From a virus, in IMG/VR virus record IMGVR_UViG_3300046715_000061, positions 1 to 24,754 of that record: a stretch of DNA of 24,754 nt. One strand, written 5' to 3'. The notes under the pieces were generated by a model. The model was not told where the DNA came from, did not search any database, and worked only from the letters and a program-made list of their open reading frames with translations. A program made the position numbers and the translations under genes. Numbering within the stretch: position 1 is the stretch's first letter; each line of letters opens with the position of its first letter. Below, in pieces: positions 12,906-24,754 of the stretch.

Positions 12906-12919
12906 TCCACGGAGGAGTC

Positions 12920-13732
12920 ATGACCGCTTACGGACGGACCGTCTACGGCAGCAACCCGCTAGCCGGTGCCGCACGCAACAACGCTGCTGCACGCGGCTGG
13001 GGCCCGGGGTGGCCGAACGCCCAGGAGTCCAAGATGATCACCGTCGCCGGGGGCGGGGTGAAGGTCCGGGTGCGGCGCGAGATTGGCCCGCTCGTCGCCA
13101 CTCTCCTCGCGCTCACGGACAAGACGTACAACCTGAAGCCGGGGGCCTGCTGGGGATTCGCCAACCGGCCCATCCGTGGCACGAAGACCGCGTCGAACCA
13201 CTCGTGGGGCCTAGCGGTTGACCTCAACGCTGAGGACAACCCGATGAGCACGACCTTCCACACCGATATTCCCCCGGCCGTCGTGAAGGCGTGGGAGTCG
13301 TGCCACTTCTACTGGGGCGGCCGGTACGCCAACAGGCCGGACCCGATGCACTTCGAGTACGTGGGCCGCCCGGCGGACGTAGCCGCTGACCTCAAGCGGG
13401 CCGCCGCACTGCTCAACCCCAGTGCACCAGTCGTTGCGCCGCCGCTGGACCGGTCGCTGGTGATGAAGCAGTGGCGTATCGACAAGGCCACCCGGGCAGG
13501 GCAGAAGCCCACCGAGACGCTGAGCAATAGCGAGGCGTACTGGGTGAGCTGGTACCGCCGCAGCCTCGGCATCCTGCTGACCCGCAAGAAGGTCACCTAC
13601 GACGGCCGGGAGACGTTCCTGTCTCTGGTCCAGCGGTTCCAGAAGGCGTACGGGCTGGTGCCGGACGGCATCCCCGGACCCAAGACCGTGGACGCGCTGC
13701 GCCGCCTTGCGGGCTACCGCGTCCAGGACTGA
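12920..13732 (+). CDS. Endolysin: M15-type peptidase with peptidoglycan-binding domain
   Basis: The 270-residue enzyme would cut peptidoglycan stem peptides at the end of infection. The N-terminal domain carries the M15 metallopeptidase zinc signature: His94 and Asp101 in SNHSWGLAVDLN and His144 in DPMHFEY, with Arg86 in the loop before them (RPIRGTKTASNHS). A linker at about 165-205 leads to a C-terminal peptidoglycan-binding-1 type repeat (SLVQRFQKAYGLVPDGIPGP followed by KTVDALRRLAG, about 225-265). No signal peptide is seen, so export must depend on a holin. GGAGGAG at 12911-12917 precedes the ATG at 12920. Confidence 0.92.
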   Translation: MTAYGRTVYGSNPLAGAARNNAAARGWGPGWPNAQESKMITVAGGGVKVRVRREIGPLVATLLALTDKTYNLKPGACWGFANRPIRGTKTASNHSWGLAVDLNAEDNPMSTTFHTDIPPAVVKAWESCHFYWGGRYANRPDPMHFEYVGRPADVAADLKRAAALLNPSAPVVAPPLDRSLVMKQWRIDKATRAGQKPTETLSNSEAYWVSWYRRSLGILLTRKKVTYDGRETFLSLVQRFQKAYGLVPDGIPGPKTVDALRRLAGYRVQD

Positions 13733-13744
13733 GAGGAGCAACCG
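13732..13744 (+). promoter_or_regulatory. Variant start element before holin gene
   Basis: AGAGGAGCAACCG directly before the ATG at 13745 matches the right-arm start element AGAGGAGCGAACC with one base missing. It is the only near copy seen within the rightward structural-lysis block. Confidence 0.5.
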
Positions 13745-13957
13745 ATGATCTGGAAGCGCGAACCGGCAATGATCCTTGGCGTTGTGCAGGCGATCGTCGC
13801 CCTAGCGATCAGCTTCGGCTTCGGACTGTCCGCTGAGCAGACCGGCGCGATCCTCGCCGTAACCGCCGCCGTACTGGCGCTGGTTACCCGGTCCCAGGTG
13901 ACCCCTGTGGCTCGGCCGGCCAACCCGCCCAGCGAGCCAGACGACCCGGTGGCGTGA
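13745..13957 (+). CDS. Probable holin, two membrane spans
   Basis: A 70-residue protein directly after the endolysin. Two hydrophobic spans are visible: residues 9-26 (MILGVVQAIVALAISFGF) and 33-47 (TGAILAVTAAVLALV), joined by a short polar turn (GLSAEQ). The tail is polar and proline-rich (PVARPANPPSEPDDPVA). This matches the small two-span holins that follow endolysins in actinophages, which form the membrane lesion. The start is ATG 13745. Confidence 0.75.
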   Translation: MIWKREPAMILGVVQAIVALAISFGFGLSAEQTGAILAVTAAVLALVTRSQVTPVARPANPPSEPDDPVA

Positions 13958-13960
13958 TGC

Positions 13961-14212
13961 ATGGACGCAACCCCGATCCTGGCGCAGTACGGCGCTCTCG
14001 GGGTCATGGTCATCGCTGCGGGGCTGGCCGTCCGGGTTTTGTTCCAGCGGACCACCGAAGCGTATGAGCGGGAGCGGGAGCGGGCCGACCGCATGGAGCA
14101 GGAAGTCCAACGGCTTAACGCCGTGATCCAAGAGAAGATGCTGCCCATCCTCCACGAGGCGACCCGGGCCATTTCCGACGCTCTGCAAGAGCAGCGCAGG
14201 AGGGACCGCTGA
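13961..14212 (+). CDS. One-span membrane protein with coiled coil, lysis region
   Basis: An 83-residue protein with one N-terminal membrane span (residues 7-29, including QYGALGVMVIAAGLAVRVLF) and a long charged helix (TTEAYERERERADRMEQEVQ, then LNAVIQEKMLPI) likely to form a coiled coil in the cytoplasm. Proteins of this shape follow holins in many actinophages and may be a second holin or a holin regulator. The previous gene ends at 13957 and the next starts in the stop of this one (TGATG at 14210-14214). Confidence 0.7.
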   Translation: MDATPILAQYGALGVMVIAAGLAVRVLFQRTTEAYERERERADRMEQEVQRLNAVIQEKMLPILHEATRAISDALQEQRRRDR

Positions 14213-14397
14213 TGCCGACGACACCGACCCCCGCAGAACTGGCGGACGCGCGAGAGCTACTGGAGTCCAGCCGACGCCTCCGTGATGACCTGCTTGGGGC
14301 GGTCGGGAAGCTGGACTCATACATCGAGCAGTTGCGGGAGGTGACCGGTGACGAGCCACATTCCGGAGCTACCGCGCCAGCTCCTCCGGGACACTAG
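14212..14397 (+). CDS. Small helical protein, lysis region
   Basis: A 61-residue soluble protein with a helix-rich Asp/Leu/Arg core (PAELADARELLESSRRLRDD, then LLGAVGKLDSYIEQLREV) and a proline-rich end (ATAPAPPGH). The start overlaps the previous stop. Its last 50 bases overlap the next gene in another frame. No family is recognised. Confidence 0.6.
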   Translation: MPTTPTPAELADARELLESSRRLRDDLLGAVGKLDSYIEQLREVTGDEPHSGATAPAPPGH

Positions 14398-14497
14398 CGA
14401 CCTCATGACCACGCTCGATCAGACCGTGGCGAACCTCCGCGCGTTCACCGAACGGTTGCGTGCGGCAACCGAGGCCCAACGTCAGGAGGACCAATGA
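14348..14497 (+). CDS. Small helical protein overlapping its neighbours
   Basis: A 49-residue frame starting at GTG 14348, with GGGAGGTGA at 14336-14344 a few bases before it. It reads TSHIPELPRQLLRDTSDLMT, then TLDQTVANLRAFTERLRAAT, a helical and possibly coiled-coil protein, and ends EAQRQEDQ. It overlaps the previous gene by 50 bases and the next by four (ATGA at 14494-14497). It fills a gap that would otherwise separate two tightly packed genes, which is the main support. Function unknown. Confidence 0.55.
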   Translation: MTSHIPELPRQLLRDTSDLMTTLDQTVANLRAFTERLRAATEAQRQEDQ

Positions 14498-14964
14498 ACG
14501 AACGGATTCCGGGCCTGGTCGCACAGGCCGAACAGCTCTCCGGCAACGTCAGCGCGCTAGCTGCGGAGGTCGGCGCGCTACGGACCAGCAACCGCCACAT
14601 GCGGCAGATCGTCGGCGCGATCGCTGCGGTACTAGCGCTGGTGGTCCTGGTCGCTGTCGTGCTCGTGTTCGTGGCCGCCGACGCGCGGGAGGCGTCCCGC
14701 CGGGCCGAGGCCGCCAACTCGCTAAGCGAGCGGAACGCCCAAGCACAGAAGGTCTCCTGCGAATCCGGCAATGAGGCCCGGCGCGTCAACCGCCAGCTCT
14801 GGACGTACGTGCTGGACCTCTCCAGCAAGAACCCGAACCTGACCGCCGAGCAGCACCGACAGATCCGGACGTTTCGCGGCTACCTCGTGACGGTGTACGC
14901 GGACCGCGACTGCAACTCCGATCATCCGACCCCGCTACCGAGTCCGCCGTCGCCGTCTCGGTAG
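14494..14964 (+). CDS. One-span membrane protein with N-terminal coiled coil
   Basis: A 156-residue protein. The N-terminal helix (PGLVAQAEQLSGNVSALAAE, then VGALRTSNRH) may be a coiled coil in the cytoplasm. One strong span covers about residues 37-61 (QIVGAIAAVLALVVLVAVVL). A helical outer part has two cysteines (KVSCESGNE and DRDCNSDHP) and a proline/serine tail. A spanin- or envelope-related role in lysis is possible from the location; no family is recognised with certainty. GGAGGACC at 14485-14492 lies just before the ATG. Confidence 0.7.
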   Translation: MNERIPGLVAQAEQLSGNVSALAAEVGALRTSNRHMRQIVGAIAAVLALVVLVAVVLVFVAADAREASRRAEAANSLSERNAQAQKVSCESGNEARRVNRQLWTYVLDLSSKNPNLTAEQHRQIRTFRGYLVTVYADRDCNSDHPTPLPSPPSPSR

Positions 14965-14999
14965 CGGCCCCGCAAGAACCAACCCGAAGGAGCAAGCCC

Positions 15000-15134
15000 G
15001 TGAGTACTCAGACCCCCGAGCCGGACCCGGCCGACGTGCCGGAGACCGACGTGCCGGATACCGACCAGCCGGACGTCTCGACCCCGCCGGACCCGGACAC
15101 CGAGAACACCGGTACGGAGGAGGAGGCAGGCTAA
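15000..15134 (+). CDS. Small acidic Pro/Asp/Thr-repeat protein
   Basis: A 44-residue frame starting at GTG 15000, with GAAGGAGC at 14986-14993. The product is built of loose PDP/ETD/DVP repeats (PDPADVPETDVPDTDQPDVS) with no hydrophobic residues beyond valine, so it is probably unfolded. It is the last gene before a strong terminator. Function unknown; the binding site and position are the evidence that it is a gene. Confidence 0.55.
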   Translation: MSTQTPEPDPADVPETDVPDTDQPDVSTPPDPDTENTGTEEEAG

Positions 15135-15152
15135 CAGCCGCCACCGACAACG

Positions 15153-15187
15153 AACGGCCCCCTGGCTTACGCCGGGGGGCCGTTCTT
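15153..15187 (+). terminator. Hairpin terminator after structural-lysis operon
   Basis: AACGGCCCCC at 15153-15162 pairs perfectly with GGGGGCCGTT at 15175-15184 and is followed by TTCTTCTG. The loop is TGGCTTACGCCG and can pair partly within itself. It lies 18 bases after the last stop of the rightward late genes. Confidence 0.8.
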
Positions 15188-15245
15188 CTGCGTCCCGCGC
15201 CACGAGTGGGGGAACCCGACGGGGTGGGCTCAACCCTGCACGAGA

Positions 15246-15293
15246 GGTACGGCTAGGCCCGGGTCTCCCCGATCGCTCCTCGCTCGCCGTACC
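15246..15293. other. 48-bp dyad, candidate attP core
   Basis: GGTACGGC at 15246-15253 is mirrored by GCCGTACC at 15286-15293; ten of the outer eleven bases of each half match. The total length of 48 bp with outer arms and an asymmetric centre is the geometry of minimal attP sites of serine integrases such as Bxb1. The integrase gene is 3.7 kb away, which is farther than usual, so the assignment is tentative. Confidence 0.35.
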
Positions 15294-15316
15294 AGGAGGC
15301 CGCAAGGTATCACGGC

Positions 15317-15353
15317 GCAACCTGGACTTATGCCGCCGCCTAGTCCAGGTTGC
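15317..15353. repeat. Perfect 12-bp inverted repeat
   Basis: GCAACCTGGACT at 15317-15328 and AGTCCAGGTTGC at 15342-15353 are separated by 13 bases. A second small hairpin, GTTGCC/GGCAAC, follows at 15357-15371, so the GCAAC/GTTGC word occurs four times in 55 bases. No T-run follows. It could be an operator, an RNA structure in a leader, or an attachment-site arm. Confidence 0.6.
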
Positions 15354-15371
15354 TGCGTTGCCGGGGGCAAC

Positions 15372-15400
15372 TAGACGCCCGTATATACGCCGTCTATATT
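15372..15400 (+). promoter_or_regulatory. Sigma-70-like promoter overlapping a palindrome
   Basis: TAGACG at 15372-15377 and TATATT at 15395-15400 are 17 bases apart and lie 47 bases before the GTG of the ribbon-helix-helix gene. The spacer contains the perfect palindrome CGTATATACG (15380-15389), flanked by TAGACG and CGTCTA (15391-15396), which would suit an operator. It is one of the few AT-containing stretches in the window. Confidence 0.6.
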
Positions 15401-15407: not shown

Positions 15408-15446
15408 CGGGGGTAACCGGCCCCCGCCGGACCAGAGGAGCGAACC
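15408..15446 (+). promoter_or_regulatory. Hairpin plus start element, copy 1
   Basis: CGGGGG at 15408-15413 pairs with CCCCCG at 15421-15426. It is followed by AGAGGAGCGAACC at 15434-15446, which abuts the GTG at 15447. Confidence 0.7.
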
Positions 15447-15647
15447 GTGGACAAGCCGAAGGTCTCACTGCGGTCCTTCCGGGTCGAGGACGAGATCTGG
15501 GAGGCCGCGCAGGAGGCAGCCGCCGAACGCGACGAGAACGTCTCCCAGGTACTCCGGCGGGCCCTCAAGGAGTACGCCGGACCGCAATACGCCGGGCGGG
15601 GCACTGGGGCCCCGCCCGGTCCAACTACAGAGGAGCGAACCTCATGA
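15447..15647 (+). CDS. Ribbon-helix-helix DNA-binding protein (Arc/CopG type)
   Basis: A 66-residue protein with the ribbon-helix-helix pattern: strand KVSLRSFRV (residues 5-13), helix A EDEIWEAAQEAAAERDE (14-30), the turn NVSQ (31-34) and helix B VLRRALKEY (35-43). Such proteins bind DNA as dimers through the strand. The tail from about residue 45 (GPQYAGRGTGAPPGP) is encoded by a GC hairpin and by the next start element, giving the ending TEERTS, so it is probably not part of the fold. It is the first gene after a promoter containing a palindrome and so may regulate itself. GTG 15447 is set by the start element. It could also be an antitoxin, but no toxin is recognised next to it. Confidence 0.8.
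   Translation: MDKPKVSLRSFRVEDEIWEAAQEAAAERDENVSQVLRRALKEYAGPQYAGRGTGAPPGPTTEERTS
15592..15643 (+). promoter_or_regulatory. Hairpin plus start element, copy 2
   Basis: CCGGGCGGGGC (15592-15602) pairs perfectly with GCCCCGCCCGG (15609-15619) around a six-base loop. AGAGGAGCGAACC at 15629-15641 then leads into TC and the ATG at 15644. The unit lies in the 3' end of the previous gene. Confidence 0.75.
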
Positions 15648-16081
15648 CGGAAGTCACGCCCGGTCGTTACCGGGACTACGACGACCACACGGTGGAGTGT
15701 CTGCACTGCACCGCCGACAGTAACGGGACCGTGGCCCTGATCCCGGGGACCGCGATCGAGGCTCACGAGCTGTGGCACGCCGGGCCCGCAGTCAGGAAGC
15801 TACTGACCCCGGTGACCGGGGAGTGGCCCGACCTCACCGCCGACAGCGACGGACCCGAACGGGATGCGTCCGAGGCGTACGGCTACCCGCCCGGCACGGT
15901 CTTCATCGGCACGCCCGGGGAGACCGAGACCCGTATCCCGGAGCTGACCGACGACCAGCTCACCGCGTGGGCCGAGGAGGCGTGGCCGCTGGCCGGCCAC
16001 CCCGCCTCGGAGCACGACGCCTGGGTAGAGGCGTACCTCAAGGTGGGCCGGATGCTCTCCGGGAAGGTGATCCGAGGATGA
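15644..16081 (+). CDS. Unknown protein, acidic, with CxxC
   Basis: A 145-residue acidic protein starting at ATG 15644 in an ATGA overlap with the upstream gene. The N-terminus has a single C-L-H-C pair with a nearby His (VECLHCTADSN, later HELWH), suggesting a metal site or a small structural motif. The remainder (YGYPPGTVFIGTPGETETRI, then PELTDDQLTAWAEEAWPLAG) is not recognised. It ends with an ATGA overlap into the next gene. No function is proposed. Confidence 0.7.
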   Translation: MTEVTPGRYRDYDDHTVECLHCTADSNGTVALIPGTAIEAHELWHAGPAVRKLLTPVTGEWPDLTADSDGPERDASEAYGYPPGTVFIGTPGETETRIPELTDDQLTAWAEEAWPLAGHPASEHDAWVEAYLKVGRMLSGKVIRG

Positions 16082-16275
16082 AGGTCAAGATCCTCAAGAG
16101 CGACGACATAGCCCGGTGCCCGCGCCGGTCACTGCTGCCGGACCACTACAACGACGACGGGTCCTGCAAGTGCTGCGGGGCCCTCTCCGAGGGGTGGCCG
16201 TGTATCCGGGACAAGCCGCACGACGCGCACCCGCACCGGGACCGGAACGGGCGCGAGTGGGGGTGGGACCTGTGA
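16078..16275 (+). CDS. Small protein with zinc-ligand motifs
   Basis: A 65-residue protein beginning at ATG 16078 within an ATGA overlap. It carries Cys14 and the cluster GSCKCCGALSEGWPC, followed by a His/Asp-rich stretch (KPHDAHPHRDRNGREW). The spacing of cysteines and histidines suggests one bound zinc. It overlaps the next gene by four bases (GTGA). Function unknown. Confidence 0.7.
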   Translation: MKVKILKSDDIARCPRRSLLPDHYNDDGSCKCCGALSEGWPCIRDKPHDAHPHRDRNGREWGWDL

Positions 16276-16763
16276 GCGACAAGCAGTCCTGGTTCGACCT
16301 GCTGTACGCGGAGTACGAGGAGCGTGGCGAGGCGATGTTCGCGTTCTCGCGTAAGCAGGTCGAGGAGCGAGGCGTCACGTGGGACGAGTTCCAGACGGGT
16401 TGGACGTCGGTAGGCGCTGGCCTGCACGTCAAGAACACGGTCCGGGTGCAGTTCGCTCACCGGATGCACACCGACCACAAGGCGTACTTGGCGTCACTGC
16501 CGGAGTTGCGGGTGGAGTACCTGAAGGGCACCGACAGGTGGGACCGGCCGCTGTACCGCGTCGTTGACCAAGTGATCGAGGGCAAGGGCGTTAAGCGCGG
16601 CGAGATCCTGTGCGACGTGGGCCTAAACCCGCCGGAGGAGACGACGGAACTGCACACGATGACGCCGGAGGGTGAGCCGATCGCGGCCCTGGCGGTCCGG
16701 CCGGTGTTCGTGCAGGACGGCACTACCACGGAAAACCAAACACAAGAGGAGCGAACCAAATGA
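16272..16763 (+). CDS. Unknown protein
   Basis: A 163-residue protein starting at GTG 16272, with a G-rich site (GGGGGTGGG) before it and a GTGA overlap. It begins SDKQSWFDLLYAEYEERGEA and has an aromatic-rich helical start, then a beta-like middle (LRVEYLKGTDRWDRPLYRVV) and a strand-rich end. The last residues QEERTK come from the start element of the following gene. No family is recognised. Confidence 0.7.
   Translation: MSDKQSWFDLLYAEYEERGEAMFAFSRKQVEERGVTWDEFQTGWTSVGAGLHVKNTVRVQFAHRMHTDHKAYLASLPELRVEYLKGTDRWDRPLYRVVDQVIEGKGVKRGEILCDVGLNPPEETTELHTMTPEGEPIAALAVRPVFVQDGTTTENQTQEERTK
16745..16757 (+). promoter_or_regulatory. Start element, copy 3
   Basis: AGAGGAGCGAACC directly before AA and the ATG at 16760. 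No clear GC hairpin lies in front of this copy. Confidence 0.7.
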
Positions 16764-17125
16764 ACATCATCAAGACCGGACTGCTAGCGCTAGCGGCCCT
16801 CCCGATCCTGGCCGCCTGCGGTGGCCCGGCGGATGACGCCGCGCCGCACACGGCCCCTAGCAGCTCGACCGTAACCTCTACGGCCCCGTCAGCCTCTACT
16901 CCCGCCGTACCGGCGTGCACGAGCGTGTGGGCCGCCGGGCGGGTACTCCCGGCGGACTACGCCGGGTGCCAGAACGGGGACACGCTAGAGGCCGCCGTAT
17001 CCGGCGGCTGCGGCATCATCGCGTTCGGGAAGGCGTGGGCCAAGCCGGGCCAGACGATCCGGGTAGCGAAGACCGGTGAGCTGGCCGCCGACCCGGCGTA
17101 CAAGGCCGCCTACGCGGCCTGCTGA
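16760..17125 (+). CDS. Phage-encoded lipoprotein
   Basis: A 121-residue protein with a lipoprotein signal peptide: basic start MNIIK, hydrophobic TGLLALAALPILA and the lipobox L-A-A-C with the modified Cys at position 20. A Ser/Thr/Ala/Pro linker (about 27-50) leads to a small domain with four cysteines (PACTSVWAAG, AGCQNGD, GGCGII and the final Cys), which could form two disulfides outside the membrane. Known phage lipoproteins act in superinfection exclusion or lysogenic conversion (for example Ltp of TP-J34); this one shares only the type. The mature domain (ACTSVWAAGRVLPADYAGCQ) resembles small secreted actinobacterial domains with W-x-x-G-x-x-L-P-x-x-Y-x-G-C. It sits in the non-structural block between two regulators. 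Confidence 0.85.
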   Translation: MNIIKTGLLALAALPILAACGGPADDAAPHTAPSSSTVTSTAPSASTPAVPACTSVWAAGRVLPADYAGCQNGDTLEAAVSGGCGIIAFGKAWAKPGQTIRVAKTGELAADPAYKAAYAAC

Positions 17126-17130
17126 CTCCG

Positions 17131-17358
17131 ATGAGCGACCGCCTAACGCTGCTAGCCGGAGGAGACGCCGTGTACGTCTACCCGGACGTACGGAACAGCC
17201 CGGAGACCGCCGGGCTCGTGGCGAGCCAGCAGGCGATGATCGACATCGCCTACCCGGCAGGAGAAACGCACATCGCGAGCGTCAGCGCCGAGCGCTGGCC
17301 GCAGGTCCGGCAGCGTCTCCAAGAACTCGGGGTATCCATCGTGGATACCCGGGACTGA
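17131..17358 (+). CDS. Small unknown protein
   Basis: A 75-residue protein starting at ATG 17131, five bases after the lipoprotein stop, with only a weak binding site, so probably translationally coupled. It has beta strands (TLLAGGDAVYVYPDVRNSPE), a helix, then THIASVSAERWPQVRQRLQE and LGVSIVDTRD. The alternation suggests a small alpha/beta fold. Its 3' end encodes the hairpin at 17330-17350. Confidence 0.65.
   Translation: MSDRLTLLAGGDAVYVYPDVRNSPETAGLVASQQAMIDIAYPAGETHIASVSAERWPQVRQRLQELGVSIVDTRD
17330..17350 (+). repeat. GGGTATCCA hairpin
   Basis: GGGTATCCA (17330-17338) and TGGATACCC (17342-17350) form a perfect 9-bp stem with a TCG loop, 23 bases before start element copy 4. The word GGGTATCC recurs in the promoter region near 18376. 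Confidence 0.6.
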
Positions 17359-17373
17359 ACAGCTACACCAACC

Positions 17374-17391
17374 AGAGGAGCGAACCTCATG
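17374..17391 (+). promoter_or_regulatory. Start element, copy 4
   Basis: AGAGGAGCGAACCTCATG is complete and ends in the start codon at 17389. Confidence 0.75.
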
Positions 17392-18084
17392 AGCAACACC
17401 ATCACGGAGACCGGCGAGCCGGTCGTAGACCCCGCCAACGAGTGTCAGGGGGAGTTCCATTTCCGCGACTTCGACGGTACCCGGACCAGCCAGCCGTGCG
17501 GGCAGCCGGTGACCCACCGGCCGGTCGTAGACGACGCGTACTCCCTCCACCTCCGGGCGGCCGGGAACACGGACCCGGAGGTCCAGCCGCAGAAGCTCCC
17601 GCTCTGCGACCACCACTACGAGGAGCTACAGCACCAGATCGCGGAGCAGGACGCCGACGACCCGTACCGGGTCTGGATCAGCGCCGAGCCGGTCACGATC
17701 CTGGTCGGGTACACGAAGGCGGTCGTTCCTGAGTACGACGAGGAGCTGGGGGCGTACCCCGATGACGCGCCGGACCTCTACGTGCCGTATTCGGACGGCT
17801 GGCGGCCGGGAGCTGAGCAGCACGTCCTCTCCCTCACGGTGGACCTCCCGCCGAAGTTCGAGGCGCACCAGGTAGCCGACCTGGTGTTCTACGCGACGAA
17901 CGCGCCGGACCTGGGGGACGACCCGTACGCCGGGGCGATCCGGGCCGCGATCGACGCGACCGGCTACCGGGGCGAGGAGGGCGGTCACTTCTCGCTCTCC
18001 GTAGGCGACACGGTGACGGTGGACGGGATCGGGCTAGCCTGCAAGTCCGCAGGCTGGGGGTCCATCGAGGAGGCCGGACGGTGA
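17389..18084 (+). CDS. Unknown protein with N-terminal zinc-ligand cluster
   Basis: A 231-residue protein. The N-terminal part has spaced Cys and His residues (NECQGEFHFRD, QPCGQPV, and KLPLCDHHYEEL), fitting a zinc-bound module. The C-terminal 70 residues have HVLSLTVDLP, then a helix and HFSLSVGDTVTVDGIGLACK followed by SAGW. The S-L-S-V-G-D-x-V-x-V-D-G-x-x-x-x-C-x-x-x-G-W pattern is shared by many small actinophage and actinobacterial plasmid proteins of unknown role. It ends in a GTGA overlap with the next gene. Confidence 0.7.
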   Translation: MSNTITETGEPVVDPANECQGEFHFRDFDGTRTSQPCGQPVTHRPVVDDAYSLHLRAAGNTDPEVQPQKLPLCDHHYEELQHQIAEQDADDPYRVWISAEPVTILVGYTKAVVPEYDEELGAYPDDAPDLYVPYSDGWRPGAEQHVLSLTVDLPPKFEAHQVADLVFYATNAPDLGDDPYAGAIRAAIDATGYRGEEGGHFSLSVGDTVTVDGIGLACKSAGWGSIEEAGR

Positions 18085-18233
18085 GCGTGGAATGGGTCGG
18101 CGGGCACGAGGAGCCCGACCCGGCCAAGCCGGACCCGTCTACCGCTAGCCTCCTCGCTAGCATCCGGGAGGCGATGGACGAGCTAGAGGCATCCCGCCGC
18201 CGGGAGATTGCGGAGTCCCGCCGGAACCGCTGA
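18081..18233 (+). CDS. Small charged helical protein
   Basis: A 50-residue frame starting at GTG 18081 in a GTGA overlap. It has a short acidic/proline start (GGHEEPDPAKPDPS) and a charged helix (TASLLASIREAMDELEASRR, then REIAESRRNR). It is the last gene before a strong palindromic terminator. Function unknown. Confidence 0.6.
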   Translation: MSVEWVGGHEEPDPAKPDPSTASLLASIREAMDELEASRRREIAESRRNR

Positions 18234-18243
18234 CGGCAAGCCG

Positions 18244-18277
18244 TAGAGGCCCCCTCTCACGTGAGAGGGGGCCTCTA
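18244..18277. terminator. Perfect 34-bp palindrome, bidirectional terminator-like
   Basis: TAGAGGCCCCCTCTCAC (18244-18260) is directly followed by its exact reverse complement (18261-18277). It begins eleven bases after a stop codon. In RNA it would form a 15-bp stem with a four-base loop. There is no T-run. Alternative pairing with TCTACGG at 18283-18289 is possible. Confidence 0.75.
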
Positions 18278-18305
18278 GCCGTTCTACGGGGCCCGGAGGT
18301 CCCCC

Positions 18306-18333
18306 GGGGCCGTCTCAGCCTGATGAGGGCCCC
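18306..18333. repeat. Second GC hairpin in the 18.2-18.4 kb gap
   Basis: GGGGCC and CTCA (18306-18311, 18314-18317) pair with TGAG and GGCCCC (18324-18333), with a two-base bulge and a six-base loop. It may back up the preceding terminator. Confidence 0.5.
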
Positions 18334-18356
18334 GCCGCGCCGGGGAGATACCCGTT

Positions 18357-18386
18357 TAGACAAATAACGTCCCAGGCGGGTATCCT
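18357..18386 (+). promoter_or_regulatory. Sigma-70-like promoter for the integrase segment
   Basis: TAGACA (18357-18362) and TATCCT (18381-18386) are 18 bases apart, in an AT-richer patch. The pair is enclosed by the inverted repeat GATACCCG (18347-18354) and CGGGTATC (18377-18384), which could be an operator. It shares the TAGAC word of the other promoter at 15372. Confidence 0.55.
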
Positions 18387-18415
18387 TCCAAAGGGGTATA
18401 CGGAACTAGCCAACC

Positions 18416-18433
18416 AGAGGAGCGAACCTCATG
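18416..18433 (+). promoter_or_regulatory. Start element, copy 5
   Basis: AGAGGAGCGAACCTCATG is complete, ending in the start codon at 18431. Confidence 0.75.
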
Positions 18434-18718
18434 CCGATCTTCAACCCGCACGAAGGGGTCACCGAGGCCCAGGCGGACTACTGGGTCACCGCCGACTTCT
18501 ACGAGGACCCGTACGCGCCGCAGGCCACCCCGGCGGACGCCCACCGGGAGTGGCACGCGAACGCGGGCGTCCCGATGGGACAGCCCGGGTGCCCGCAGGA
18601 CGCCTGCCACCCGTACGACGACCCGGAGGAGTACGGCCCGCAGGAGCCGCAGGTCAAGTGCGGCTACTGCCACCAGCGTCACGGCATCTCCACCGTCCGG
18701 CTGCACGCCGGTATCTGA
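18431..18718 (+). CDS. Small protein with a C-terminal zinc-ribbon-like motif
   Basis: A 95-residue acidic protein, first gene after the second promoter. The sequence is rich in aromatic and acidic residues (QADYWVTADFYEDPYAPQAT). Cysteines and histidines are clustered in QPGCPQDACHPYDD and KCGYCHQRHGIS, consistent with one zinc site (two C-x-x-C-like pairs). Its role is unknown; it could be a small DNA- or protein-binding factor expressed with the integrase. Confidence 0.7.
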   Translation: MPIFNPHEGVTEAQADYWVTADFYEDPYAPQATPADAHREWHANAGVPMGQPGCPQDACHPYDDPEEYGPQEPQVKCGYCHQRHGISTVRLHAGI

Positions 18719-18727
18719 CCACCGCCC

Positions 18728-18774
18728 GGGGGCCGGGAGACCGGCCCCCCGACCGTAGAGGAGCGAACCTCATG
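18728..18774 (+). promoter_or_regulatory. Hairpin plus start element, copy 6
   Basis: GGGGGCCGG (18728-18736) pairs with CCGGCCCCC (18741-18749) around GAGA. AGAGGAGCGAACCTCATG (18757-18774) follows and ends in the start codon at 18772. Confidence 0.75.
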
Positions 18775-18963
18775 AAGGACGAACTGAGCTACACCGCGAC
18801 CGGCGACGGACACGCCGTCTGGTACCGGGGCAAGAACATCGGCACCGTACGGAAACGGGGCCTCTACTGGTACCCGTACGCGCCGGACGGCAAGATCGTG
18901 CACGGCACGTTCGGGTCCCTGTCCGGGGCCGCCGGACGCCTCCGGGACCGGGTGACCGCATGA
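18772..18963 (+). CDS. Small basic protein coupled to integrase
   Basis: A 63-residue protein whose stop overlaps the integrase start (ATGA at 18960). The pattern AVWYRGKNIGTVRKRGLYWY, then APDGKIVHGTFGSLSGAAGR is three short strands followed by a helix, a layout like AP2-type or other three-strand DNA-binding folds. It is basic in the strand region. Small basic proteins encoded next to serine integrases include recombination directionality factors, but sequence alone cannot show this. Evidence for being a real gene is strong (start element, coupling); the function is a proposal. Confidence 0.75.
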   Translation: MKDELSYTATGDGHAVWYRGKNIGTVRKRGLYWYPYAPDGKIVHGTFGSLSGAAGRLRDRVTA

Positions 18964-20621
18964 CGACCCGCGCCGTGAACCGCAAGCGGGCCCGCCACCT
19001 GGCGCTGGTCCCGCCGCCGCCGAAGAACACGGCGAGCATCAACATCCGCCTCTCCAAGAAGGCGACGGAGGAGAACCTCAGCAAGGACGGGATGCTGGCC
19101 GACGCGAAGGCGTTGGCCTCCCGGCTCGGGCTAACCGTCCCGCCCGGCTGCATCCACATCGACGAGAAGTCCGGCGCGATCCGGGACCGCGAAGGGTTCA
19201 TGGACTGGCTGGGGGACGCCCGCGAGGGACGGGTAGACACCCTCATCGCGTACCACGTGGACCGGATGACCCGTGAGGGCATCAACGTCGCCGCGATCAT
19301 CCTGGACGTGGTCGAGGGCAAGGACTCCGAGACCGGCGCGGTGGTCCGGCACCCGGTCCGGCTGGTGGACTGCAAGGGCCTGGACAGCCAGGGAGACCCG
19401 CAGGGGTTCCGCTGGTCCTTCGTGATCAAGGCCGAGATCGCCCGCGAGGAGCGGGAGCGGATGAGCGAACGGTCCCTGGACATGCACCGCCGGTTCAAGG
19501 CCGAGGGGAAGCGGACCGGCGGGGACGACCCGTACGGGTTCCAGATCAAGGACAAGAAGTCCCGCAAGCTAATCCCGCTCCCGGAGGAGGCCCGCTACCT
19601 GCGGGAGACCGCCGAGATGCTGTGGGCCGCCGACCCGGACGTGCCGGTAAAGGACCGGGTAACGGTCGGGTCCGTGGTCCGGTGGATGAACCAGCAGGAG
19701 GGCTGCAAGCCGCGCCGGGCCAAGAGCTGGTCCCGTACGACGTTGATCCAGTGCCTCAGCCGGACGCCGGATGCGACCGAGACCGATATTTTCACGCCGG
19801 ACGAGCGGGCCAGCCTCCGGACCCTGCTGGAGACCAAGCCGGGGACCGGCCCGCTGCACAAGGGTGGCCGGCCAACCGGCGAGCGGGGCGGCCGGGCCGG
19901 TACGCACGTCGGGTCCGGCGGACTCCTGGTCTGCAAGGGCTGCGGGAGCAACATGAACATTCACCCCCGGGTCCGGGGCGGCCGGAAGCGGGACGGGTCC
20001 GACCGGCCCAAGGTCAAGGTGGACGACTACCGGTGCAGCGCCAACCCGGGCGCGTGCCCGCTGGGGTCGCCTGCGGTGTTCTCCGGGTTCATGGACCCGT
20101 ACTTGGAGGAGCGCTTCCTGGACACGTACGGGGACCGGCCGCAGTACGAGCGCCGGGCCACGGTCGCCGGGTACGCCGCCGTCGAGGAGGCCGAGCTGCG
20201 GGTAGCGGAGGCCCTGGCCGAGCTGGGCCGGGAGGCTACGGCGGAAGCGTTCGCGGAACTTCAGGCCGCACAGGTGGCCCGGCAGGAGGCCGCCGAGGTA
20301 CCGCAGGAGGTCACGGTCCGGCTGGACCCGTCCGGCCGGACGCTGCGGGAAGTGTGGGCCGCCGCCGGGATGACGGAGAAGCAGCAGATGCTCCGGAACG
20401 CCTTCGGCAAGATCGTGGTCGGGCCGGGCCGGAGGGGGCAGCGGAAGATGGACGAGGACCGGTTGGAGTTCCTGGGCGTACTGGCCGGGGAGCACATCTT
20501 GGGAGTGGACGACCCGGCGGACTACCGGCCCGGGATGCTGGTGCTGGTGCCGGAGCTAGACGACGACGCGGTGGCGTCCGCGCGTACGGCGGATGAGGTA
20601 GCGGCCCGGGAGGCGTCCTGA
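18960..20621 (+). CDS. Large serine integrase
   Basis: A 553-residue site-specific recombinase that would join phage attP and host attB. The catalytic domain has Arg30 and nucleophile Ser32 (ASINIRLSKK), the DEKSGAIRDREGF element (68-80) and DTLIAYHVDRMTR with Asp101, Arg102 and Arg105. The long helix follows with IAREERERMSERSLDMHRRF (residues near 160-180), then the DDPYGFQI start of the recombinase domain. A zinc-ribbon has Cys325, Cys328, Cys359 and Cys366 and is followed by a Glu/Ala-rich coiled coil (about 400-450). The length is typical for large serine integrases. It follows the small basic gene with an ATGA overlap and ends before a strong terminator. The N-terminus is about 20 residues longer than the core fold needs. 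Confidence 0.95.
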   Translation: MTTRAVNRKRARHLALVPPPPKNTASINIRLSKKATEENLSKDGMLADAKALASRLGLTVPPGCIHIDEKSGAIRDREGFMDWLGDAREGRVDTLIAYHVDRMTREGINVAAIILDVVEGKDSETGAVVRHPVRLVDCKGLDSQGDPQGFRWSFVIKAEIAREERERMSERSLDMHRRFKAEGKRTGGDDPYGFQIKDKKSRKLIPLPEEARYLRETAEMLWAADPDVPVKDRVTVGSVVRWMNQQEGCKPRRAKSWSRTTLIQCLSRTPDATETDIFTPDERASLRTLLETKPGTGPLHKGGRPTGERGGRAGTHVGSGGLLVCKGCGSNMNIHPRVRGGRKRDGSDRPKVKVDDYRCSANPGACPLGSPAVFSGFMDPYLEERFLDTYGDRPQYERRATVAGYAAVEEAELRVAEALAELGREATAEAFAELQAAQVARQEAAEVPQEVTVRLDPSGRTLREVWAAAGMTEKQQMLRNAFGKIVVGPGRRGQRKMDEDRLEFLGVLAGEHILGVDDPADYRPGMLVLVPELDDDAVASARTADEVAAREAS

Positions 20622-20653
20622 TCAGCTCGTGAGGCCGGTTCTAGGCAGCGAAT

Positions 20654-20690
20654 AGGGCCCGGCGGGGGAAATCCCCCGCCGGGCCCTTCG
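20654..20690 (+). terminator. Strong hairpin terminator after integrase
   Basis: GGGCCCGGCGGGGG (20655-20668) pairs perfectly with CCCCCGCCGGGCCC (20673-20686) around AAAT; an outer A-T pair extends it, and TTCGTATT follows. It ends the rightward integrase transcript. Confidence 0.85.
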
Positions 20691-20942
20691 TATTCCCCGA
20701 GAGTGCCCCTCAGCACCGGGCCGGGGCCGACGCGGTAGCAGCCGCGCCGACCCCGGCAGGGTGAGGCCCCCACGGGGCCAGAGGAGCGAACCTAACCAAC
20801 CCCGTGAGGGCTTCGAGCGTCATCATAGCCTCTGGTCAGTACGGCGCAGGCCCCGGACCCGTGGGGGATGACGTGATCAACGACACCACCGGCCGGAGGT
20901 CACGCCCCTACTGTCCTAACCCTCTGGGGGCCTCAGTTGGTT
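20691..20942. other. Convergent non-coding gap with dyads; possible attP region
   Basis: No convincing gene is seen between the terminator and the stop of the leftward operon at 20943. It holds an imperfect 16-bp dyad (GCCGGGGCCGACGCGG at 20720-20735 against 20742-20757, 14 of 16 pairs, six-base spacer), an orphan start element, and CGTCATC (20818-20824) mirrored by GATGACG (20867-20873). A site for the integrase just downstream of its gene would be in a common place; none of the dyads is decisive. Confidence 0.35.
20765..20792 (+). promoter_or_regulatory. Orphan hairpin plus start element, copy 7
   Basis: GGCCCC (20765-20770) and GGGGCC (20774-20779) form a short hairpin followed at once by AGAGGAGCGAACC (20780-20792). 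No start codon stands at the normal distance; the next is a GTG at 20804. It may be the remnant of a lost gene. Confidence 0.6.
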
Positions 20943-21146
20943 CTACGTCGTACCCATCGCAATCGCGTGCTCCGCAAGCACTTCCGCGCCGTGGGCCGGG
21001 CAGCACGCCTCCCCGACAACCTCGTCGCAGTCTAGGCACGACACGGTGACGTGGATGCCGTCCGTCAGGTCGATGCACACCGACCCGACCGTGTGCGGCT
21101 TGACCTCCGGCAGCGGGTCCGGCGGCAGCTCGCTGTCCGGGATCAC
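20943..21146 (-). CDS. Small zinc-motif protein, last gene of leftward operon
   Basis: A 67-residue protein starting at GTG 21146, chosen because it forms a GTGA overlap with the upstream stop like most junctions in this operon; an ATG eight codons earlier is possible. It shows CIDLTDGIHVTVSCLDCDEV, then GEACCPAHGAEVL, which gives a C-x-x-C pair and a C-C-P-x-H element likely to bind zinc. The last stop (TAG) is followed by the convergent gap. Function unknown. Confidence 0.65.
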   Translation of the reverse strand: MIPDSELPPDPLPEVKPHTVGSVCIDLTDGIHVTVSCLDCDEVVGEACCPAHGAEVLAEHAIAMGTT

Positions 21147-21319
21147 CGCCTGACCTCCCGCTGCATCCACTCCGGGGCCGGGAGCGGCCGGTGCTCCGGG
21201 CAGAACATCTGCACGAGCACATTCGTCTGGGTCGCCGGGTCCCAGTGCACCAGACTGAAGCTCTCCACGTCCGGGCTAGCGAGCTGGGCCGGACAGCGCG
21301 CGCAGGTCTCCGGGTTCAC
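21143..21319 (-). CDS. Small zinc-motif protein
   Basis: A 58-residue frame starting at GTG 21319, with GTGA overlaps at both ends. NPETCARCPAQL gives a C-x-x-C pair, and MFCPEHRPLP gives a second Cys with a nearby His, so a single zinc site is probable. The middle (VESFSLVHWDPATQTNVLVQ) has beta character. The pattern resembles small actinobacterial zinc proteins of the C-x-x-C...F-C-x-x-H type, but no function is known. Confidence 0.65.
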   Translation of the reverse strand: MNPETCARCPAQLASPDVESFSLVHWDPATQTNVLVQMFCPEHRPLPAPEWMQREVRR

Positions 21320-21570
21320 GGCAGACCTCCCGGCGGTAGTAGTGCCTGGCCGGCCACTGTGAGCCGATACCCGCGACGGCGCGGGTAGGGACTCTCCGGG
21401 TCGGCCCAGCCGGACTCGACGTAGCCGTTGACCTCTAGTCGGGCCAGGAGCGGATAGAGCGTGTCCGGCCCCAGCTCCGTCACCTTCGCTAGGTCGAAGG
21501 CCCAGTGATGGGCCTCCGGGTCGTCCGCTAGTGCGATCAGCACACGCTCCAACGCGTTCGGCTCAGTCAT
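21316..21570 (-). CDS. PadR-like winged-helix regulator
   Basis: An 84-residue protein with the PadR/MarR-type winged-helix pattern. After a first helix (NALERVLIALADDPEAHHWA) come FDLAKVTELGPDTLYPLLARL (helix-turn-recognition helix, with the PadR-like G-x-x-T-L-Y-P-x-L-x-R-L), then EVNGYVESGWADPES and the wing PRRRGYRLTVAGQALL. PadR proteins normally repress genes and have a C-terminal dimer domain, which is missing or very short here. It probably binds DNA as a small regulator for this operon or a host target. ATG 21570 overlaps the previous gene by eight bases. Confidence 0.8.
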   Translation of the reverse strand: MTEPNALERVLIALADDPEAHHWAFDLAKVTELGPDTLYPLLARLEVNGYVESGWADPESPYPRRRGYRLTVAGQALLPPGGLP

Positions 21571-21946
21571 CCGTCGCCACCCATCCCACGTACCGCCCGG
21601 CGAGGATCGCGATGAAGTCCGGTATGTCGCCGTCGTGATCCCCGAGCTGGCCGTCTCCCAACGCCCACTCCCGCAGGTCGCTCTCCGGCACCGTGATCCC
21701 GTGCTCCCCCGCGAACCGGGTGACGCACTCGTGGCCGATCGCCAGTAGGAACCAGTAGCGGAACGGGCTCGACCCGAAGTTGTCCACGCCGTGCGGCGAC
21801 CGCAGGCCCGGCAGCTCTACCGCGAGGGTCGTCTCGCTCTCCGCGTAGTGGGCCTGGGCCGCCTCCTCGATCTTGGCTGCCTGGTCCTCACCGAACCGGG
21901 CGACGAACGCACCGCGGATTAGGTCCGTCGTCTTGAGGTCAGCCAC
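21563..21946 (-). CDS. Unknown soluble protein
   Basis: A 127-residue protein starting with GTG 21946 (in an eight-base overlap). The first half is helical (TDLIRGAFVARFGEDQAAKI, then EEAAQAHYAESETTLAVELP), the second has NFGSSPFRYWFLLAIGHECV and an acidic turn-rich end. The FGSSPFRYWFLLAIG-x-x-C-V segment is aromatic and may be a core helix. No family is named with certainty. It overlaps the PadR-like gene by eight bases. Confidence 0.65.
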   Translation of the reverse strand: MADLKTTDLIRGAFVARFGEDQAAKIEEAAQAHYAESETTLAVELPGLRSPHGVDNFGSSPFRYWFLLAIGHECVTRFAGEHGITVPESDLREWALGDGQLGDHDGDIPDFIAILAGRYVGWVATDD

Positions 21947-22193
21947 CGGTCAACTCCCACACAGGTACGGGAAACTCCAGCCAGTGCGTGACCGGCGTGT
22001 AGTCGGACGTACAGCAGCCGACCTCCGGGTCAGCCTCCCAGCGGACCTCTCCCGGCCCGCGTAGCTTGGGCCACCCGGAGACCACTACGTCGCCGCTGAT
22101 CAGCGCGACCCGGCCCTCTAGGGCCCCGTCAGACATGTCCGGCAGCCCGTCCGCCTCGACCTCGTGGACGATCACCGTGATAGCGCTGGTCAC
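21939..22193 (-). CDS. Unknown small beta-rich protein
   Basis: An 84-residue protein starting at GTG 22193 in a GTGA overlap with the previous gene. It reads TSAITVIVHEVEADGLPDMS, then LEGRVALISGDVVVSGWPKL and ends HWLEFPVPVWELTGG; a CC pair occurs in VGCCTSDYTP. It appears to be mostly strands. Function unknown. Confidence 0.65.
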   Translation of the reverse strand: MTSAITVIVHEVEADGLPDMSDGALEGRVALISGDVVVSGWPKLRGPGEVRWEADPEVGCCTSDYTPVTHWLEFPVPVWELTGG

Positions 22194-22375
22194 CGATTCA
22201 GCCTCCCCACGGCGAACCCGGCGGACCCGGCGATGAACAGGGCGGATACGCACCAGATCCCGGCCCACGGCGTAGTGCCGTCCCGGAAGAACAAGCAGCC
22301 GATGAGCTGGGCGAACCCGGCTAGTACTGCGATAGCCATGATGGCCAGCACCCGGACCACATCGCGACCGGTCAC
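22190..22375 (-). CDS. Two-span membrane protein
   Basis: A 61-residue frame starting at GTG 22375, with GTGA overlaps at both ends. Two hydrophobic spans are visible: about residues 7-28 (VRVLAIMAIAVLAGFAQLIG) and 38-57 (WAGIWCVSALFIAGSAGFAV), with a short polar loop (RDGTTP) between them. It would sit in the cytoplasmic membrane. No function is known; it could belong to an exclusion or signalling group with the neighbouring membrane proteins. Confidence 0.65.
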   Translation of the reverse strand: MTGRDVVRVLAIMAIAVLAGFAQLIGCLFFRDGTTPWAGIWCVSALFIAGSAGFAVGRLNR

Positions 22376-22743
22376 CGTCTCGCCCCCCGCCGCCGCGCGT
22401 CCCACCGCTGCCGCCGCTGCCGCCGCCAGTACGCGATGAGCATCGGGCCGGAGGCTGCGTTGGGGGCGAGGAGGATGCCCCCGGCGATCTTGACGTAGCC
22501 CTTGTCGTCCTCCTCGTGGCCGACGCCCTTGTCGTAGTTGAGGTGGAACCCGGGCGGCTGGGTCGCCCGGTAGTCCCAGCCGCGCGGGTACTTCTCGGTG
22601 TCGCCGTGCGGGGAGTCGGCCAGGTCCGCCAGCATGACGTGGGTCCGCTTGTACTCCCAGCCGTAGGCGTGCTCGATGTGGTGTTCGAAGCGCTCTCGCT
22701 GGTTCCAGTCGTCCAGCGGGAACGCGGGGATGGATAGGGTCAT
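22372..22743 (-). CDS. Unknown protein
   Basis: A 123-residue protein whose start is set by the start element on the minus strand (ATG 22743, ATGA overlap). It reads LSIPAFPLDDWNQRERFEHH, then IEHAYGWEYKRTHVMLADLA, a middle rich in Tyr, Trp and His, and ends with a very basic tail (YWRRQRRQRWDARRRGARR). The basic tail could bind nucleic acid. No family is recognised. Confidence 0.7.
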   Translation of the reverse strand: MTLSIPAFPLDDWNQRERFEHHIEHAYGWEYKRTHVMLADLADSPHGDTEKYPRGWDYRATQPPGFHLNYDKGVGHEEDDKGYVKIAGGILLAPNAASGPMLIAYWRRQRRQRWDARRRGARR

Positions 22744-23063
22744 GAGTTCGCTCCTCTGTCGTTCTGCGCCAGCCACAGTTCCGTGACCGGCGGATCAACC
22801 ACCTGTACTACCGCCGCCAGGTGCCGCCCCCGCGCGACCCGGAGACCGAGGCCGCGCCGCAGCCGGTACGGGACCGCGCCCGGGTCGTTCATACCCGGGT
22901 GGTCCCGGCGGAAGCGCTTGGAGCGCACCCAGTCCAGGATGCGCTCCACCTCGTCCACCACCTGTGCCTCGTCGTACGGCCCGAACAGGTCCACGACCGT
23001 CCGGAGACCTTCCGCCGGGTCGAAGGCGTCTACAACGACGCCCCACAGCTCCGCGTCAGTCAT
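22740..23063 (-). CDS. Unknown protein
   Basis: A 107-residue protein starting at ATG 23063 in an ATGA overlap. The first half is acidic and helical (TDAELWGVVVDAFDPAEGLR, then GPYDEAQVVDEVERILDWVR), the second has a basic Arg-rich turn (RLRRGLGLRVARGRHL) and strands (AVVQVVDPPVTELW). The charge split suggests a small two-part protein. No family is recognised. Confidence 0.65.
   Translation of the reverse strand: MTDAELWGVVVDAFDPAEGLRTVVDLFGPYDEAQVVDEVERILDWVRSKRFRRDHPGMNDPGAVPYRLRRGLGLRVARGRHLAAVVQVVDPPVTELWLAQNDRGANS
22741..22757 (-). promoter_or_regulatory. Start element, minus strand copy 8
   Basis: Read on the minus strand, AGAGGAGCGAACTCATG differs from the consensus by one missing C and ends in the start codon at 22743. 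It lies in the 3' end of the upstream gene, giving the ending DRGANS. Confidence 0.7.
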
Positions 23064-23473
23064 AGATCGTCCTCCGTCCACTGCGGTGGCTCGGGAGGCT
23101 TGATGCCCATCAGCGCCATGTCCTTCTCGGCCTGGGCTTGCAGCCAGTCGCTGATGCTCATACCGCGCTTCCCGGCCTCGACCAGGGCTTGGATCATCGC
23201 GGACCGGCCCTCGATCCAGCCGTACTTGTAGGCCCGCAGGCGCTTGAGGTACGCCATGCCAACCAGGGCGATGTATGCGCCGATTACGCCGCTGGCCGTA
23301 GCCCGCAGCGGGCCGGGCGGACACACGCTGATGATCACCGTGCAGACCCAGCCGAGCACCAGGAGCACGATGCCGGAAACCAGTACCGGCCACATGCGGC
23401 CGGGCCGCCGCACGAGTAGATCGTCAGCGAACCAGGTCTTGCGGTACGTGGCCCGGAACAGCTTGTCCATCAT
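23060..23473 (-). CDS. Two-span membrane protein with cytoplasmic helices
   Basis: A 137-residue protein starting at ATG 23473 (ATGA overlap; a second ATG follows at once). Two spans are visible at about residues 26-46 (WPVLVSGIVLLVLGWVCTVI) and 53-76 (ATASGVIGAYIALVGMAYLK). The C-terminal part is helical and charged (EGRSAMIQALVEAGKRGMSI, then SDWLQAQAEKDMALMGIKPP). It may be a holin-like or envelope protein; its place far from the lysis genes argues for another role, such as exclusion. Function unknown. Confidence 0.7.
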   Translation of the reverse strand: MMDKLFRATYRKTWFADDLLVRRPGRMWPVLVSGIVLLVLGWVCTVIISVCPPGPLRATASGVIGAYIALVGMAYLKRLRAYKYGWIEGRSAMIQALVEAGKRGMSISDWLQAQAEKDMALMGIKPPEPPQWTEDDL

Positions 23474-23583
23474 CGGCGTACCCAGTGTGTGAAGGCCCAG
23501 TCGGCTAGCGGGTAGGTGACGACCGCGATCACGAGGCAGATCGCTACCTCCGCGACCGTGAGCCCGAACAGCTTCCGTCTCAC
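23470..23583 (-). CDS. 37-residue one-span membrane micropeptide
   Basis: The frame starts at GTG 23583 in a GTGA overlap and ends in an ATGA overlap. A basic start (VRRKLFG) leads to one hydrophobic span (LTVAEVAICLVIAVVTYPLA) and a short tail (DWAFTHWVRR). The overlaps at both ends, plus absence of any other frame here, support it. It is likely to act with the membrane protein encoded next. Confidence 0.6.
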   Translation of the reverse strand: MRRKLFGLTVAEVAICLVIAVVTYPLADWAFTHWVRR

Positions 23584-24179
23584 AGGAGCACCTGCACTTC
23601 GTCCGGGGCCTTCTGGAGGTAGGGGGCCTTCGCGAAGACGGTGGCCCACACCTTGTACGGGTCGCCGTTGTCCCGAGCCCAGAAGAACGCGTCGGTGACC
23701 ATCGCGAATTCCTCGTGGCCGCGAGTGATGTGGACCGACAGTCCGTCGAACTCCTCACCGCAGGCCGGGCACTGCTTCCCCAGTGCCTCCTTGACCCCGG
23801 CCAGGTTGTGAACCGTCCGCAGGTGTCCGGCCCACCCGGTCCAGGCGTAGTTACCGGGACACCAGATGCAGTCGGTCCGGCCCTCAGCCATGCGGCCGCC
23901 CGGGCGCGGAGTAGATCCGCCCGGCATGGGGCGTGGTGCCTTCTGGCCGGCCACGTCCGGGGACTGCCCGAACTCCTTGATGCAGTACCGGGCCTCGGCC
24001 AACGTCATGTCCGTGTTGCACGGGTCGCAAAGGTCTACCCGCTTGGGTTTGCCGCCGTCGAGTGCGTGGACGCGGGTCAGTCCTTCGACCGACCGGGGAT
24101 CGTGGCGCGGTAGGAAGTCGCCGCTGCTCCCGGCCTTCACGCCGTCGCACCAGATGTAGACGCGGAGTTCCTGGGCCAT
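23580..24179 (-). CDS. Protein with tandem C2H2-type zinc fingers
   Basis: A 199-residue protein starting at ATG 24179 (TAATG overlap). The N-terminal part (ELRVYIWCDGVKAGSSGDFL, then DLCDPCNTDM with one C-x-x-C) may be a first zinc module. After a Gly/Pro linker come two C2H2-like fingers: CIWCPGNYAWTGWAGHLRTVH (C-x2-C-x11-H-x4-H) and CPACGEEFDGLSVHITRGH (C-x2-C-x9-H-x4-H). The rest is helical (DAFFWARDNGDPYKVWATVF). C2H2 pairs of this eukaryote-like spacing are uncommon in phages. A nucleic-acid-binding role is likely but not shown. Confidence 0.75.
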   Translation of the reverse strand: MAQELRVYIWCDGVKAGSSGDFLPRHDPRSVEGLTRVHALDGGKPKRVDLCDPCNTDMTLAEARYCIKEFGQSPDVAGQKAPRPMPGGSTPRPGGRMAEGRTDCIWCPGNYAWTGWAGHLRTVHNLAGVKEALGKQCPACGEEFDGLSVHITRGHEEFAMVTDAFFWARDNGDPYKVWATVFAKAPYLQKAPDEVQVLL

Positions 24180-24649
24180 TAGTCCTCCCCGTCGTCGTTC
24201 ACGTAGATGACACCCTTGGTGGTGTCGGCGAAGAATTCCTCGCCCATGAGCAGCTCGCGCAGCTCCTCGGTAATCCGCTGGCCACCCTTCGGGATCAGGT
24301 ACGGCACCATCACGCCGTCAACCTTGACCTCGACGTACGTCAGGTGCCACTTGTCGTCCAGCTTCCGGAGGCCCCGGCTGTTCTTCCCGAGCGAGACCAC
24401 GACGAAGTCTCGCTCCCGCTGGTTCTTGCAGTCGTTGCACTTCTGAATCCGCGTCACCCGGGTGCCCGGCCGGTTGGCGTCGGTGCCGTACACGCGGTCC
24501 TGCTTCTTGGTCCAGATGTGGTGGCCCCGGGCCCGGCACCGCTTCTGTCCTGGGCTCAGGTCAGCAACGTGCTTCCGGGTAATGTCCGGGTCGCCGGGTG
24601 GCTCCTCCAGCGCTGTCGTCACGAGCTTCAAAGCTCCTGCTCTTGCCAT
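24179..24649 (-). CDS. Zinc-ribbon-like protein, first gene of leftward operon
   Basis: A 156-residue protein whose start is set by a start element and hairpin upstream. Cysteines and histidines lie in KRCRARGHHIWTKK and QKCNDCKNQRERDFVVV, so one zinc ribbon is likely (about residues 38-80). The second half is a strand-rich part (WHLTYVEVKVDGVMVPYLIP) and an acidic end. It may be a nucleic-acid-binding protein, in keeping with its neighbour; no family is named with confidence. Confidence 0.7.
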   Translation of the reverse strand: MARAGALKLVTTALEEPPGDPDITRKHVADLSPGQKRCRARGHHIWTKKQDRVYGTDANRPGTRVTRIQKCNDCKNQRERDFVVVSLGKNSRGLRKLDDKWHLTYVEVKVDGVMVPYLIPKGGQRITEELRELLMGEEFFADTTKGVIYVNDDGED

Positions 24650-24657
24650 CTGTTGAA

Positions 24658-24718
24658 TCGCTCCTCTGTTACGTGGGTGCTGGTGGCGGTCCCGGGGGAG
24701 AGGGGAACCCCCGGGACC
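24658..24718 (-). promoter_or_regulatory. Hairpin plus start element, minus strand copy 9
   Basis: On the minus strand AGAGGAGCGA (24667-24658) stands eight bases before the ATG at 24649. Upstream GGTCCCGGGGG (24718-24708 on the minus strand) pairs perfectly with CCCCCGGGACC (24698-24688) around a nine-base loop. A promoter for the operon probably lies beyond, partly outside the window. Confidence 0.65.
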
Positions 24719-24754
24719 TCTAGAGATTACTTTGAGTCCCGCTAGCCCGCTCTC

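Follow-up and report, generated by a model that had tools for sequence, protein, structure and literature searches.

What is to be made of twelve small genes that run leftward at the end of a phage record and overlap at every junction? The record, IMGVR_UViG_3300046715_000061, is analysed here in its entirety (the window, 24,754 nucleotides (nt), 68% G+C), and matches for capsid, portal, endolysin and integrase all lie on it, which assigns the twelve-gene array to the non-structural part of a tailed actinophage genome. The reading that we favour, with moderate confidence, is that of a leftward accessory or early operon of a probably temperate actinophage, whose products are mostly orphans. The array consists of the following genes.

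24179-24649, minus strand: gene 1, 156 amino acids, Cys/His pairs, zinc-ribbon-like by eye
23580-24179, minus strand: gene 2, 199 amino acids, 8 Cys and 6 His
23470-23583, minus strand: gene 3, 37 amino acids, one hydrophobic segment
23060-23473, minus strand: gene 4, 137 amino acids, two hydrophobic segments
22740-23063, minus strand: gene 5, 107 amino acids, without family match above cut-off
22372-22743, minus strand: gene 6, 123 amino acids, without family match above cut-off
22190-22375, minus strand: gene 7, 61 amino acids, two hydrophobic segments
21939-22193, minus strand: gene 8, 84 amino acids, acidic, without family match
21563-21946, minus strand: gene 9, 127 amino acids, acidic, helical in a low-confidence model
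21316-21570, minus strand: gene 10, 84 amino acids, PadR-type winged helix, Pfam PF03551
21143-21319, minus strand: gene 11, 58 amino acids, CxxC and CxxH pairs
20943-21146, minus strand: gene 12, 67 amino acids, CxxC and CCxxH pairs, final gene of the array

These twelve open reading frames (ORFs) span 24649-20943 and overlap at 11 of 11 junctions, from gene 1 to gene 12 by 1, 4, 4, 4, 4, 4, 4, 8, 8, 4 and 4 nt, a recount that agrees with the overlap classes given in a preliminary description of this DNA (eight of 4 nt, one of 1 nt as TAATG and two of 8 nt). The coding signal is strong in all twelve genes, with a G+C content of 0.78-0.95 at third codon positions (GC3) and of 0.40-0.55 at second positions (GC2). 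Furthermore, a gene finder combining a codon model with a Shine-Dalgarno model and trained solely on the 16 rightward genes of the record recovers all twelve, two of them with other starts, again with 11 overlapping junctions, and with a low score (9.7) for gene 3.

From such tight packing the preliminary description had concluded that the products are made in fixed ratios. Start strength was estimated as the duplex energy with the 16S tail, in the sequence that we take this tail to have, and 98 ATG/GTG codons of the same stretch served as controls. The Shine-Dalgarno sequences of 11 of the 12 starts rank in the best 9.2% of these controls; since these genes each have a strong Shine-Dalgarno sequence of their own, fixed product ratios do not follow and most genes can start independently. 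The sole array start without a strong Shine-Dalgarno sequence is that of gene 4 (at 73.5% among the control codons), whose translation probably depends on coupling, by stop and restart, to the 37-residue membrane-like gene 3. This corrects an easy inference, since consecutive 4-nt overlaps, however many, are on their own no proof of fixed ratios in a high-GC phage.

The run of overlaps might also be taken for something special. Within the record, 16 of the other 34 co-directional junctions overlap, as compared to all 11 in the array (hypergeometric probability 0.0013). In four phages related through their capsid, counted with joined frameshift versions of tail assembly chaperones left out, overlaps were found at 44 of 71 junctions in Kumotta, 31 of 55 in Shoya, 33 of 62 in Morrissey and 30 of 66 in 1191A, and the longest runs comprise 19, 8, 6 and 7 junctions, respectively. 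The longest run is hence shorter than the 11 of this record in three of the four, but that of the well-annotated relative Kumotta exceeds it, and any suggestion of a special run is not supported. Overlaps in Kumotta are found at 33 of 41 junctions in the early region and 11 of 28 in the late region, and its genes 35-54 (MK977703) resemble the array: all twenty are small, almost every one is hypothetical, and the 19 junctions between them all overlap, by 4, 1 or 8 nt. However, the Kumotta early region is rightward, contains an exonuclease gene and is preceded by genes for a tyrosine integrase and for excise, and phmmer at E-value (E) <= 1 revealed no homologue of the cassette in Kumotta. The rightward-trained gene finder, which undercalls low-GC phages such as Kumotta, gave overlaps at 250 of 691 co-directional junctions in 30 fetched loci, with longest runs of <=9. 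Among unidirectional prokaryotic overlaps described in print, those of 4 nt are commonest (about 45%), those of 1 nt come second (about 15%), and there is a positive correlation of short overlaps with G+C (PMC3887535). Because comparable runs occur in related phages, the array is ordinary in kind: its overlap run is real and mildly dense and fits the early small-gene regions of phages.

Concerning the products, the only one with a family match above cut-off is that of gene 10, which matches Pfam PF03551 over residues 31-78 (E 1.7e-9, 37.9 bits against a cut-off of 27) and solved PadR chains in PDB (E 4e-4), and which was matched in 17 of 296 actinobacterial genomes at E <= 1e-6; a phage tblastn yielded only three unannotated faecal contigs for it (E 0.006-0.02). 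PadR regulators typically carry a C-terminal dimerisation helix. While all 12 relatives examined continue for 20-40 residues past the matched wing, gene 10 stops within about ten, and because its sequence ends right after the wing, the predicted product is a PadR-type DNA-binding domain and not a full PadR protein. Together with the Cys/His-rich products of genes 1, 2, 11 and 12, recognised by eye, this accounts for the five regulator or zinc-ligand proteins previously proposed, and the three proposed membrane proteins correspond to genes 3, 4 and 7 with their hydrophobic, membrane-like segments. No Pfam zinc-binding family was found above cut-off for genes 1, 2, 11 and 12; the zinc-finger matches of gene 2 are all sub-threshold (DZR_2, 15.6 bits against a cut-off of 27), and genes 1, 11 and 12 have no Pfam match. 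Three matches to a gene-1-like Cys/His spacing in the fetched loci, two of them HNH-endonuclease-like, were not convincing. NCBIfam models gave no match among genes 1-9, and predicted structures have a mean predicted local distance difference test score (pLDDT) of 37.9 for gene 1 and 55.6 for gene 9, values at which fold matches would carry no meaning. Profile searches gave no head, tail or replication family above cut-off, consistent with the earlier exclusion of such roles, and by its sequence the array thus fits an accessory, early or lysogenic block.

Whole collections were searched for relatives of genes 1, 2, 4, 6, 9 and 10; genes 3, 5, 7, 8, 11 and 12 were searched in family libraries and fetched loci only, and the statement that they lack relatives is weaker for them. 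A phage tblastn left genes 1, 2, 6 and 9 unmatched and gave for gene 4 only Salmonella spanin fragments with E of 4-5, which are not credible. Among viral contigs no relative of genes 1, 2, 6 and 9 was found in a scan that detects close relatives only, and a plasmid search left genes 1 and 2 unmatched. In actinobacterial genomes, genes 6 and 9 had no match at E <= 1e-4 (0 of 296), and matches for gene 1 (1 of 346), gene 2 (2 of 346) and gene 4 (1 of 296) all have E above 1e-4. The gene 1 match and one of gene 2 overlie genes that clearly code in another frame and are treated as chance, as is the second gene 2 match, which tblastn did not recover, and the gene 4 match, inside a frame of 678 amino acids, is treated likewise. 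Travel of the array with the integrase was also considered and not borne out, as 25 fetched loci, of which 24 were integrase regions and one a terminase relative, gave at best E 0.002 over 36 residues for a cassette homologue. The large serine integrase is related to those of Streptomyces phages Dubu and Samy (38.7% and 37.3% identical, with 86-88% of the query aligned), but these two phages carry an HNH endonuclease, transfer RNAs and other genes downstream of it and no homologue of the cassette. The fetched loci contain clear relatives of the structural genes but none of the array, and therefore the array would appear to have another history than the structural genes, or to evolve much faster.

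The array is flanked by an integrase gene and two inverted repeats.

18960-20621, plus strand: large serine integrase, converging on the twelve-gene array
20654-20687, no strand assigned: perfect 16-bp inverted repeat, z-scores of -5.2 and -5.6 on the two strands
24688-24718, no strand assigned: perfect 11-bp inverted repeat with a 9-nt loop, upstream of gene 1, RNA fold z-score of -2.7

The 16-bp repeat lies in the gap from the integrase stop (20621) to gene 12 (20943), lacks a long T run and is likely a two-way terminator common to the convergent integrase and twelve-gene units. The attachment site of the phage might conceivably lie in this gap as well. The hairpin upstream of gene 1 is a candidate for either a 5' leader hairpin or the terminator of a leftward unit further upstream.

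A side result that merits attention of its own is a 13-bp leader, AGAGGAGCGAACC, present in seven exact copies on the plus strand, six of which directly precede the starts at 15447, 15644, 16760, 17389, 18431 and 18772.

15434-15446, 15629-15641, 16745-16757, 17374-17386, 18416-18428 and 18757-18769, plus strand: leader copies before non-structural gene starts
20780-20792, plus strand: leader copy between integrase and array, not immediately followed by a start codon
24655-24667, minus strand: leader variant AGAGGAGCGATTC, before gene 1
22745-22757, minus strand: leader variant AGAGGAGCGAACT, before gene 6

A wider 17-mer pattern of the leader has 7 matches against 0.24 expected, conservation extends past the Shine-Dalgarno core, and the structural region (1-15400) contains no copy of the leader, even when one mismatch is tolerated. 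As a repeated asymmetric motif in ribosome-binding position before several genes, it has the properties of a start-associated sequence. Such 13-bp motifs in this position are described for mycobacteriophages of cluster K and Microbacterium phages of cluster EF, whose sequences, GGGATAGGAGCCC and GGGAAAGGACCCC, differ from AGAGGAGCGAACC (PMC3203893, PMC7302621). The occurrence of the leader in a further phage lineage offers another case for asking what such leaders do. The similarity of the variants at genes 1 and 6 to the leader found before rightward non-structural genes is an argument that these two genes, at least, are native to this phage. Around the copy without a start, 20765-20807 has 28 bp in common with 15419-15446 at 89%, and perhaps represents what is left of a rightward gene lost from the junction of integrase and operon. 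Among 144 loci, a 12-mer of the leader is found, apart from the window's own pieces, in the related phage contigs L033 and L109, and a collection scan for the leader followed by ATG gave 8 contigs, one of them the L109 record; in the seven others none of the window genes tested has a relative, and these seem to be chance matches. In L033, whose portal is 73% identical to that of the window, the leader-carrying gene at 82-519 (minus strand) encodes a product with an AKK-rich, histone-H1-like tail and, by eye, a helix-turn-helix-like end.

In the favoured reading of an accessory or early operon, one messenger would extend from at or beyond 24649 to the hairpin at 20654-20687, the putative terminator common to it and the integrase unit, and ribosomes would start most genes at Shine-Dalgarno sequences inside the preceding gene, aided by stop and restart at the overlaps, with gene 4 alone probably relying on its neighbour. 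The most likely role of the PadR-type regulator, the Cys/His-rich proteins and the membrane peptides would be to alter the host or the lysogen, a role also supposed for other small non-structural proteins of actinophages. If they act on the host, they constitute a compact set of relative-poor proteins for screening. Four observations weigh against this reading. The overlap density of the array exceeds the expectation from the record's own rightward genes, as given by the probability above; no close relative carries the array, the best E from tblastn of the twelve genes being 0.007 in 105 and then 125 fetched loci; a scan of 16000-24754 for sigma-70-type promoters gave no leftward site; and the record ends 105 bp upstream of gene 1, with no sequence beyond 24754. 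With only 105 bp above gene 1, neither the completeness of the operon nor its upstream limit is secure, and the array may be the tail end of a longer unit cut short by the end of the record.

The latter is the essence of the strongest alternative, in which the twelve genes would be no more than the distal part of a right arm that is longer, runs leftward and carries replication and control genes. It is a serious contender, somewhat less probable than the accessory or early operon, with which it overlaps, since it disputes the length of the unit and not its nature. Besides the proximity of the record end, it draws on the leftward right arms of Gordonia phage Morrissey and of Microbacterium clusters EA, ED and EG (PMC7302621), but the hairpin at 24688-24718 and the leader variant before gene 1 look like the boundary of a unit. 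An unlikely explanation is lysogenic conversion or superinfection exclusion, whereby the genes would be expressed from the prophage, the products of genes 3, 4 and 7 would act at the envelope and gene 10 would set expression. The position beside the integrase, the three membrane-like proteins and the one regulator would suit it, as would the prophage-expressed defence reported for a Gordonia phage (PMC6426606), but none of the 10 proteins scanned (genes 1-10) matched a PADLOC anti-phage defence model. Considerably more doubtful is a self-contained host-control module of undescribed families, with gene 10, lacking the dimerisation helix, and the Cys/His-rich proteins controlling leader-bearing genes, including genes 1 and 6, and the three membrane proteins acting at the envelope. 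Least probable of all, and given hardly any weight, is that the array is partly an artefact with fewer genes or genes on the opposite strand, as might be supposed from two plus-strand ORFs within it that pass a crude GC3 filter (21051-21362 and 22821-23231) and from the small size and low score of gene 3, but a gene finder trained on other genes selects the leftward set and Shine-Dalgarno sequences precede 11 of its 12 starts.

As to the rest of the record, the capsid has relatives in Arthrobacter phages 1191A (61.4% identity) and Kumotta (58.4%), and portal relatives in IMG/VR reach 85% identity. The integrase, 38.7% identical to that of Dubu, has relatives in Streptomyces, Kibdelosporangium, Planosporangium and others. 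The endolysin at 12920-13732 combines an M15-type peptidase (Pfam E 2.8e-15) with a peptidoglycan-binding domain, and after the lysis region a strong hairpin at 15152-15185 (15-nt arms, z-score of -5.9), followed by a T-rich stretch, is likely the terminator of the late unit. An inverted repeat at 15312-15358 (17 nt, 88%, 13-nt spacer) precedes an AT-rich stretch and the first gene with a leader, and is a candidate operator.

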